Below, piece by piece: positions 59,846-63,111 of a DNA stretch of 64,000 bases. The notes under the pieces were generated by a model. It worked only from the letters and a program-made list of their open reading frames with translations, did not search any database and was not told where the DNA came from. The stretch's first letter is position 1. Every line of letters starts with the position of its first letter. Both the position numbers and the translations under genes were made by a program. The DNA is taken from contig NZ_BJXV01000008.1 of assembly GCF_007991175.1 (NCBI RefSeq), forward strand, positions 1 to 64,000, read 5' to 3'. The stretch comes from Halovibrio variabilis. Its GTDB lineage: Bacteria > Pseudomonadota > Gammaproteobacteria > Pseudomonadales > Halomonadaceae.

Positions 59846-60163
59846 TTAGCGCTCCTGGTCGCTTGCTTGACGCTTTGCACGTGCTAAGCGAGCGACCTTA
59901 GGGTCGACGGCCAGCGGTCGGTATACCTCGACTCGATCGCCATCACGTAATGCATGTGCCTCGGGGTTGCGTAGCGCTTTCCCGAAGACACCCAGCGGCG
60001 CCTGTGTAAACGTGTCACTGGGCAGTTCGGGAAACAGCGCAGGTAAATCGGCCGACGCCACGGCTTGGCGCGCAGTAGTGCCCTCAGGCACCCTCAGCGC
60101 CACTATGCGCTGTTTGTGCGGGAGTGCGTAGGCAACCTCGACAGCGAGCCTTTCAGCGGCCAT
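59846..60163 (-). CDS. RnfH family ubiquitin-like protein
   Basis: Small protein (105 aa) of the RnfH/UPF0125 family with a predicted beta-grasp fold; also called RatB when next to ratA, but its function is unclear. Visible: VEVAYALPHKQRIVALRVPEGTTA-type first strands (about 7-30) and the conserved GVFGKALRNPEAHALRDGDRVEVYRPL stretch (about 58-84). ATG 60163 overlaps the ratA 3' end by 11 bp; a start at 60193 would overlap more. Confidence 0.9.
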   Translation of the reverse strand: MAAERLAVEVAYALPHKQRIVALRVPEGTTARQAVASADLPALFPELPSDTFTQAPLGVFGKALRNPEAHALRDGDRVEVYRPLAVDPKVARLARAKRQASDQER

Positions 60164-61249: not shown

Positions 61250-61629
61250 GGGGGCGACATGGTTTCGACGCCGGTAACAACCCTTGCGGTGCATGCCGAG
61301 AGCGTGATGTATCTCGTAAATCCCACATCACGAAAAATAGTCGCAAATGACGAAAACTATGCTCAAGGCGCGCTAGCAGCTTAAACACTGTTAGCTTCTT
61401 GTCTGGCCCCAAGGTGATGTGCCTATTCATCACTGAGGGGATACGAGCTAAAGCTGATAGGATCGCGATTGGTGGTGTCTTCTCACCAGTCGTTAAACTT
61501 TAGAAGACTCGCGGGACTGAATCCTGACCGTCGGAGTCAGTTCCGCTAAATCAAATGACGGAATCTAAGCATGTAGAGCCAATAGGCGCGTGCTGGCGGA
61601 CGCGGGTTCAATTCCCGCCGCCTCCACCA
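61250..61629 (+). ncRNA. ssrA: Transfer-messenger RNA
   Basis: Rescues stalled ribosomes by trans-translation. The 380-nt mature RNA has the tRNA-like ends: acceptor stem GGGGGCG (61250-61256) pairs with CGCCTCC, the T arm is GGTTCAATTCC and CCA is encoded at 61627-61629. The tag frame starts at the resume codon GCA (61343) and ends at TAA (61382-61384), encoding ANDENYAQGALAA. It is downstream of smpB. Its 3' end is a well-known integration site for islands, and the sequence character changes right after it. Confidence 0.98.
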
Positions 61630-61668: not shown

Positions 61669-61901
61669 GTGCCTGTGGGCTCAAAAAGGCCTGTTTAGGC
61701 ATAGCTATGTCAACATTTGAGTCAACGTTTTTATTGGTCTCTTCATTTACGCAGGACTAGCCAGTTCGTTGCCCCCCTTCTACCGGCCTATTGGCCTCAG
61801 TGCTTATGACCAATGTCGTTTTCGATGACGTGTGCGAAGCTCAGCTGCTGTACTTTTTCAACGGCTGAAATCGGCCAGAAGCGGTCTTTAAGACGATGCT
61901 T
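61669..61901. other. Non-coding junction between ssrA and accessory DNA
   Basis: I see no convincing gene, integrase or transposon end here, and no repeat of the ssrA 3' end within the window. A short minus-strand reading frame (61797-61940) crosses its right part and is described separately. Confidence 0.5.
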
Positions 61902-61940
61902 ATGAGACACCTTGCTAAGAGGTGAGCGAACGTGTGCCAT
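61797..61940 (-). CDS. Possible 47-aa protein or gene stump
   Basis: Open frame of 47 codons on the strand of the accessory genes, product basic and His-rich (SHKHRLKDRFWPIS, ending DIGHKH). Its first 11 or so codons lie within the attC-like structure, so translation from this ATG would start in recombination-site DNA; the remainder might be the 3' stump of an older gene cut by cassette insertion. No ribosome site is evident and I recognise no family. Confidence 0.25.
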   Translation of the reverse strand: MAHVRSPLSKVSHKHRLKDRFWPISAVEKVQQLSFAHVIENDIGHKH

Positions 61941-61999
61941 ACTTGAGCGAAACGGATATGGCACACTTTTAGGAATCCATCTTAAGCAATATGTTATGC
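61902..61999 (-). other. attC-like site with decayed R' box, after the DUF4062 gene
   Basis: Read on the minus strand: R'' GCATAAC (61999-61993, overlapping the gene's stop codon), 3-nt spacer, L'' TTGCTTAAGA (61989-61980), a perfect 10-bp inner stem GTGTGCCATA (61966-61957) with TATGGCACAC (61941-61932), L' TCTTAGCAA (61920-61912), 3-nt spacer, then GTCTCAT (61908-61902) where R' should be. L'' carries one base more than L', the extrahelical-base feature of attC. The R' box keeps only its first GT of GTTRRRY, so it is probably inactive. Confidence 0.5.
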
Positions 62000-62995
62000 T
62001 TCCTTGCTGACGACTCTATGTTTCAGCATTGTTTGCATACCTAAATCTGTGAGAAGCCACTGAGCTTGCGGATGTTCATTATCAATGTTAATTAACCGTA
62101 AAGCTAAGAATTGAATTCTAATTGTATATAAATCTTGATCATCTACGGCTAATGATGTCATTTGGAAATTATTACTATCTGTCTTACTAAATTGCCGTGC
62201 AGTAAAATTATTTACATCACTGTCAAAAGCTTTGTCAGCTATAAAAGGTGATATTGCACCAAAAATTTCGCTCCAGGACACTGAATTATGCCATTTACAA
62301 TATTGAGTTTGTTGTCCCATAGACCTCGCATATAAGCTATATGTTCCATGTATATCGATTACACTATCCCAGTCAGCTAACTCCTCTCTTGGAATCACTG
62401 GCTGAGAAACCTGACTCTCTTGGAGTTGCAATTTCAGTTCATCGTTACGTTTTCGTAGATCATTAATTTCAAGGAGTAACTCTGGAGATGCTGCTGAGTC
62501 TGCTCTAATCCAACCAACAGCAGGGAATAATCTCATCGTTTTATTTAGACTAAGCGATACTTCTCCTGGCAACTGAGCAGCATTGTCCCAAAATCTGACC
62601 AATCGACCATCACTAACCTTTTCCCTAAAGCTCTGGAGTTTTTGATAAATTTCATCTTCAATTTCAGTTTTTGATCGGGGCAGTTCGTCTGGAGATTTAT
62701 GCAATAAGGCAATTATTTTGATACCTTTGCTAACAGCGTAATCAAACTCTTTTTCAGTATAGCTAAGCCCATCATCAGCTGTTGAACCATATCGACCACC
62801 AATGATGAGCAAATAATAGTCACAATCGTCGATTATTCTTTTGATAAATTCCCATTGCTCCTCATCTGCAGCCGGAAACAGCTCCATACCAGCAGGAATA
62901 CAGTCCATTTCCATTAACGTTTGTAAAACACTTTGCCTTTCTTCCTGAAGATCAACATAAGTAGAACTTATAAAAACTTGATAGCGTTTATCCAT
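61994..62995 (-). CDS. DUF4062 protein with coiled coil and C-terminal domain
   Basis: The 333-aa product begins with a DUF4062 domain (about 4-100). Its marks are [16 protein letters not shown] (5-20), the GMELFPA strand (36-42), [10 protein letters not shown] (62-71) and [10 protein letters not shown] (78-87). Then come a helical linker with a short coiled coil (about 172-196) and a C-terminal domain (about 205-333) of unknown family with a winged-helix-like end ([12 protein letters not shown]). DUF4062 is found at the N terminus of several NTPase and repeat proteins, including suspected immune proteins. The ATG has GGAA at 6 nt. The gene is AT-rich compared with the core genome and flanked by attC-like sites, so it is probably an integron cassette. 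Function unknown; a defence role is inference. Confidence 0.8.
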
Positions 62996-63039: not shown

Positions 63040-63111
63040 GCATAACGCTTCACTCACCGGAATTTTGGGAGCGAAGCGAGTAAAATTTCCGCGTGCAGTG
63101 ACTTGTTATAC
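63040..63111 (-). other. Integron attC recombination site
   Basis: A 72-bp imperfect palindrome between two same-strand genes. Minus strand order: R'' GTATAAC (63111-63105), AAG, L'' TCACTGCA, stem GGAAATTTT, terminal loop region, stem AAAATTCC, L' TGAGTGA, AGC, R' GTTATGC (63046-63040). The arms pair from R to the inner stem with one extra base in L'', which on the plus (bottom) strand is an extrahelical G, as in known attC sites. R' fits GTTRRRY except at one position. The crossover would fall between 63046 and 63045. Orientation agrees with both neighbouring genes. Confidence 0.82.

Follow-up and report, generated by a model that had tools for sequence, protein, structure and literature searches.

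Integron integrases (IntI) recombine the folded bottom strand of an attC site with attI and thereby place cassettes next to attI, and clusters of attC sites that lack an integron integrase are termed CALINs (PMC9024848). Degradation of integrons has been proposed as the origin of intI-less attC arrays; for integrons other than class 1, the authors of IntegronFinder call attI sites poorly described and undetected by their program (PMC9024848). A CALIN is already recorded for Halomonas sulfidaeris SST4 in a table in PMC10295459. Treponema also carries intI-less arrays or remnants, for which the accessible portion of the report mentions no separate attI (PMC3607928). Here we describe a cassette array in Halovibrio variabilis that resembles a CALIN and appears to be headed by an attI of its own.

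The window analysed spans positions 1 to 64000 of contig C8, a 289372-base contig of the H. variabilis assembly, and reading was continued rightward from it along the contig. An attC site, recognized by covariance model and fold, lies on the minus strand at 63040-63111, where it ends a GajA-GajB cassette. It consists of R'' (GTATAAC), spacer AAG and L'' (TCACTGCAC), followed by L' (GTGAGTGA), spacer AGC and R' (GTTATGC); L'' has an additional G relative to L'. The boxes, 3-nt spacers and single extrahelical base are present on this strand just as the initial annotation had described them. The site thus has the attC architecture of an imperfect R''-L''/L'-R' inverted repeat with an AAC/GTT core and an extrahelical base, and in the DNA fold of the 72 bases R''/R' and L''/L' are paired and the extrahelical base is present.

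Searching the window with Rfam at gathering thresholds produced four matches, none at 63040-63111; covariance and sequence models were therefore built for this analysis. The attC covariance model, R2, was made from 17 attC sites of other genomes with the H. variabilis sites excluded (an alignment containing the latter, A2, was kept out of the model), and it scored 63040-63111 at 36.8 bits with E=1.7e-7, the sole hit at E<=1 within the 64-kb window. Pair counts on a further alignment, A4, are not independent, its sites having been selected by pairing. A scan of 120 kb for the attC geometry ranked 63040-63111 first of three hits with a score of 14.0, against a maximum of 13.5 across ten random first-order Markov sequences of equal length. 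Fold energy, which is weak evidence for an attC, was dropped as a criterion: z was -1.55 on the minus and -1.97 on the plus strand, 15/200 and 10/200 shuffles, respectively, folded as well, and with 10 bases added on each side the best structure differed from the attC fold (z=-1.10). This unremarkable energy is what a chance inverted repeat or terminator would show, but the E value of 1.7e-7 comes from a model trained on other genomes, a second attC lies on the same strand, an attI heads the array and no T run follows the stem on either strand, and we give that reading practically no credence. The initial annotation had likewise set the site apart from an ordinary terminator, and of the two observations it named as telling against an attC, a low covariance score and a lack of other attC sites nearby, neither was made. 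Thus, 63040-63111 is a genuine integron attC and a cassette joint.

Read along the minus strand, the array runs from an orphan attI through a HEPN cassette with its attC, a gajA-gajB cassette with its attC and a DUF4062 cassette to ssrA. The attI (66602-66715, minus strand) is 2.6 kb beyond the window and lies in a repeated unit of about 178 bp (66603-66780, minus strand). It is followed, still beyond the window and on the minus strand, by a HEPN_RiboL-PSP gene (65822-66583; PF18735, 4.4e-10), whose cassette is ended by the second attC (contig 65768-65827; R2 28.2 bits, E=1e-5), and by the gajA gene (64155-65720; GajA, 1.2e-113). The GajB-like helicase gene (63133-64170, of which the window holds the part up to 64000; minus strand) matches PADLOC GajB at 1.6e-56 and, over the whole ORF, Pfam UvrD-helicase at 3.7e-9. 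The two good attC sites bracket GajA and GajB, which form one two-gene cassette, and GajA, an OLD-like ATPase with TOPRIM, beside GajB, a UvrD helicase, is the gene pair of Gabija. Next towards ssrA is the DUF4062 gene (61994-62995, minus strand; Pfam PF13271, 6.8e-31), which starts 44 bases past the R' box of attC 63040-63111. The attC is thus flanked by two accessory genes, those for GajB and DUF4062, on its own strand and in an orientation that fits its own, as had been claimed.

The array ends at ssrA, the neighbouring chromosomal gene for tmRNA (61250-61629, plus strand; ARAGORN and Rfam RF00023). The search with R2 for the second and third attC covered a 20-kb stretch starting at contig position 60001, and its third-best hit, which is not significant (9.5 bits, E=0.95), is read tentatively as a decayed attC-like site terminating the DUF4062 cassette, at 61898-61999 on the minus strand; its fold has z=-3.64, its R'' overlaps the DUF4062 stop codon and its R' reads GTCTCAT against GTTRRRY (by eye). 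In two relatives (L027 and L028), sequence from about 137 bp after ssrA onward matches the contig from 68261 onward, which makes the segment between a variable one. To the right of the array an AbiD/Abi_2 gene (67116-68096, beyond the window) lies on the opposite, plus strand, and with this gene just outside the array the ssrA-side segment looks like a small defence island. The sequence adjoining the attI unit at 66824-67026 of contig C8 matches several genomes of the genus (up to 85%) independently of the unit. At five other loci (L010, L013, L014, L019 and L024) the ssrA end or the sequence just downstream matches without the remaining ssrA; such partial matches may be left by elements integrating into ssrA.

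Two attC sites 2.7 kb apart with no intI over the cut-off give the array the make-up of a CALIN. The integrase profile TIGR02249 found no match over its 265-bit cut-off in the H. variabilis genome, the best reaching 77.1 bits; matches to the profile at E<=0.001 were present in all 14 control genomes. The assembly is a draft of 48 contigs with completeness given as 100%, and an intI in a gap may remain. Measured against a complete integron, the draft has no intI gene and does have, as judged by sequence only, an attI adjoining the first cassette. A sigma-70 promoter scan of the attI unit (L006 6560-6900) found no consensus of that type. The initial annotation, which placed the end of the array near ssrA and its continuation past 64000, therefore holds for the attC and for the extent of the array (the second attC being at 65768-65827) and fails for the intI it expected further right: the genome has none over the family cut-off, and the array starts at the orphan attI instead.

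To recognize this attI we relied on relatives that carry intI. A core, GTCTAATACCTGTTR, is common to the head of the H. variabilis array and to the gap between intI and cassettes at L042, L045, L047, L051 and L052. These sites entered a sequence-only attI model of 18 sequences, R1; the score of the H. variabilis site (102.6 bits) is accordingly non-independent, the site being within the training set. Among intI loci outside the training set, 10/15 had an R1 hit (E<=0.01) at most about 180 bp from intI and in the right orientation (73,850 bases searched, positions compared by eye), one of them strong (44.9 bits, at L043) and the other nine weak (12.8-18.9 bits). R1 had no hit near intI at L055, L057, L058 and L059 or on the intI-bearing stretch of G051, and its hit at L041 was about 900 bp off; these cases indicate that the genus also has integrases with different attI sites. 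Among the copies listed, nine other copies of the unit each abut a different sequence directly after GTTA or GTTG (by eye). We read the unit as attI since its core adjoins intI in relatives and its cassette-side edge coincides with the G|TT crossover; the same two features led us to reject the end of a mobile element as its identity. The repeated unit at the array head is thus predicted to contain the attI.

Sites of this kind are widespread in the genus. R1 at E<=1e-4 found attI-like sites in 72/82 genomes (219 matches, up to 11 per genome), while intI over the cut-off is present in 19/82, three of these with internal stops, and any intI match at E<=1e-40 in 24/82. Among the 58 genomes without such a match, a count that takes in genomes with short intI fragments missed at this limit (L106 and L107 come from genomes scored intI-less), attI-like sites occur in 49, and in 36 of these there is more than one. 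The 58 include nine genomes listed as single-contig assemblies, each with 1 to 4 attI-like sites, and assembly gaps are therefore not the explanation for the pattern. Directly beside attI, 30 R1 loci showed a full-length intI match in three, a fragment in two and neither in 25; the corresponding numbers in 26 named stretches were three, five and 18, the last including one (L130) too close to the end of its locus to judge. These 26 stretches were retrieved from a named genome collection with the exact attI-core pattern, and all of them lie in records titled Halomonas, Vreelandella or Bisbaumannia. A search of a family sample at E<=1e-6 matched 90/201 genomes, and a class-wide control, with 20 candidates scored per genome against 45 in the genus search, matched 1/185, H. 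variabilis itself. Plasmid and phage records gave no match to the unit at blastn sensitivity. A tally of 68/82 genomes obtained with a 511-base query includes another repeated stretch and was not used as a count of the unit.

Cassette joints are found on the expected side of these sites. In 20 loci chosen for their attI unit from the matches to the 511-base query, 51/51 attC hits (R2, E<=0.1) were on the same strand as the unit and downstream of it, however far away in the locus they lay; roughly a dozen of these hits are in the R2 training set, and attC sites of the same array are not independent. At least one such hit was present at 15/20 loci, and none at this threshold at L063, L065, L068, L077 and L078. 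At L076 (G029:C1:818000-837000), a stretch of about 12 kb contains four attI cores on the same strand, with attC hits in between; these look like stacked integron platforms.

These data bear on whether the array is an ordinary CALIN, in which circular cassettes had inserted at a non-specific attG near ssrA with no attI involved. AttC clusters without intI are common (PMC9024848, accessible text), attG insertion has been described (as cited in PMC12444791, accessible text) and H. variabilis has no intI over the cut-off, but the array is headed by the 178-bp unit, the core of which lies beside intI in relatives, and in the class-wide sample this unit occurred only in H. variabilis (1/185); we consider such an origin very improbable. 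We had first considered random insertion of the attG type next to ssrA, and abandoned it once the head of the array turned out to be a repeated unit carrying an attI core.

The unit itself has sharp edges. In 33 distinct, near-full-length intI-less copies, mean column identity in ten-base blocks was 0.65-0.96 within positions 1-180 and 0.34-0.56 outside, and the motif ACCTGTT was invariant. When the query reached 330 bases past the unit, many of the best matches ended at its far edge anyway. Copies in unlike flanks remain close to one another, with 93.3% identity between H. variabilis and G030 and 95.0% between two copies within G022; flanks of these two pairs score 8 to 12 and those of the other pairs listed 8 to 11, figures that come with no formal null. 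Four classes of far flank can be distinguished by eye among the R1 loci: the type seen at the ssrA place, the 3' end of one recurrent gene (7/30 loci), intI or what is left of it, and a small recombinase gene. The orphan form of attI is thus a sharp-edged unit of about 178 bp in unlike flanks.

The small recombinase raises the question of what handles the unit. It is a tyrosine recombinase of 213 aa with a catalytic domain only, which matches Pfam Phage_integrase at 6.4e-20 and falls below every NCBIfam cut-off. Examples at 5241-5882 of L072 and 7861-8502 of L076 are divergent from an orphan attI and occupy the position where intI is expected, and among the matches listed the gene lies divergently at 128-136 bp from at least ten attI places (by eye, one extrapolated from a partial match). 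This spacing and the Phage_integrase domain would suit a protein that handles or moves the attI unit. At E<=1e-30, however, the gene is found in 28/82 genomes of the genus, with several copies partial or containing stops, and is absent from the other 54, H. variabilis included, whereas R1 sites occur in 72/82. We regard its involvement as improbable.

A stronger competitor is decay in place: the intI of a once complete integron would have degenerated and left attI and cassettes behind, with no dispersal of attI. The intI fragments beside attI in 2/30 R1 loci and 5/26 named stretches are what such decay would produce. On the other hand, the H. variabilis copy and most of the copies fetched have no intI-side sequence in their far part (by eye), the intI-less form recurs in unlike flanks in both the H. 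variabilis/G030 and the G022 pair (93.3% and 95.0%), and the 3' end of the same recurrent gene forms the far flank in 7/30 R1 loci (by eye). Decay in place thus deserves consideration, though we judge it unlikely. A more general model, plausible in our view but put forward tentatively, is that attI in the Halomonadaceae may be a mobile, discrete module of about 178 bp that is copied within genomes, each copy founding an array. Genomes would then carry a distributed integron of up to 11 platforms that depends on an integrase only from time to time and in trans, or that is served by the small single-domain tyrosine recombinase at the intI position.

For the H. variabilis locus, we conclude with high confidence that attC 63040-63111 belongs to a small cassette array with its own attI and without an integrase gene, the cassettes of which were most likely inserted at attI by IntI. 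We observed directly the att sites and how they are ordered and oriented, the lack of any recognizable intI, and the presence of the attI core and of a gajAB cassette beside intI in relatives. By the proposed mechanism, IntI would have acted on the folded bottom strand of attC, cut at G|TT and inserted the cassettes at attI. We infer this recombination, and the integrase may have been encoded beside the H. variabilis attI and later lost, or may have been encoded elsewhere and acted in trans; any expression of the cassette genes and any defence against phages are likewise predictions. Because no IntI was found, the array is probably immobile at present, frozen until an IntI arrives.

Relatives suggest how the contents of such arrays change. 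A tmRNA gene and an R1 attI are both present in the corresponding stretch of four other genomes (G077, G046, G015 and G076). In G077, eight attC hits and other genes lie between the two, and the flank common to H. variabilis and G077 ends 6 bp from the last attC in the former (the tentative site) and 17 bp from it in the latter (E=0.0049). G041 has, at the ssrA place, a tmRNA gene and only the far part of the unit, with no R1 hit; L064 (G068:C27:77000-86000) has the post-ssrA sequence, the attI unit and attC hits, and an ARAGORN search for a tmRNA in that stretch was negative. GajA homologues occur in 3/82 genomes of the genus, H. variabilis included. In G051 a homologous gajAB (GajA 58%) is the first cassette beside an intI ORF of 338 aa, with an attC of 45.4 bits after gajB, and G080 has, in different surroundings and with an attC scoring 40 bits, a copy very like that of G051 (by eye). 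Cassettes thus appear to differ between genomes and to move.

H. variabilis has two further intI-less attC arrays, L120 (G000:C16:48000-67900) and L121 (G000:C29:4000-19738), with weak attI-like sites. The site on C16 stands at the array head (R1 21.8 bits, E=5.9e-4 genome-wide); that on C29 lies inside the array, not at its head, and at 16.9 bits is absent from the genome-wide search listing. Genes of these two arrays match SIR2-type, AbiJ-type and CBASS-cyclase models. Integrons carry phage-defence genes, and across the three H. variabilis arrays cassettes match models for Gabija, SIR2-type, AbiJ-type and CBASS-cyclase defence.

The literature consulted, mostly outside subscription journals and in its accessible text, yielded no description of dispersed attI sites without intI. 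Here, a sequence model locates attI sites that head arrays lacking intI, and does so in many genomes of a single genus. Such sites, if usable, would allow a single integrase to supply numerous chromosomal arrays, and they would open the origin of some CALINs to direct test.

Several described systems share features with this array. Like a sedentary chromosomal integron, it has an attI followed by same-strand attC cassettes, and the attI core lies beside intI in some relatives; it differs in that H. variabilis has no intI over the cut-off and many relatives have several attI sites per genome. The Xanthomonas CALINs away from ilvD are also intI-less arrays at conserved chromosomal loci, but a separate attI is not mentioned in the accessible text of that study (PMC12444791). 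Delta-attI cassettes of class 1 and 2 integrons are comparable as extra attI copies outside the usual place; there, according to the accessible text, an attI piece replaces the attC of a cassette within the integron (PMC12901181), whereas here a unit of about 178 bp heads separate arrays. The gajA-gajB cassette resembles Gabija in its adjacent genes for an OLD-like ATPase with TOPRIM and a UvrD-like helicase, and differs in being a single cassette ended by an attC and in having a GajB of the short kind (345 aa), its Gabija function being predicted from the genes. In anatomy, as far as the DNA sequence indicates, the H. variabilis array is a CALIN headed by its own attI: it shares with CALINs the two or more attC sites and the lack of intI, and is set apart from them by an identifiable attI at its head, within a unit that is shared by the majority of genomes in the genus, usually with no intI adjoining it.
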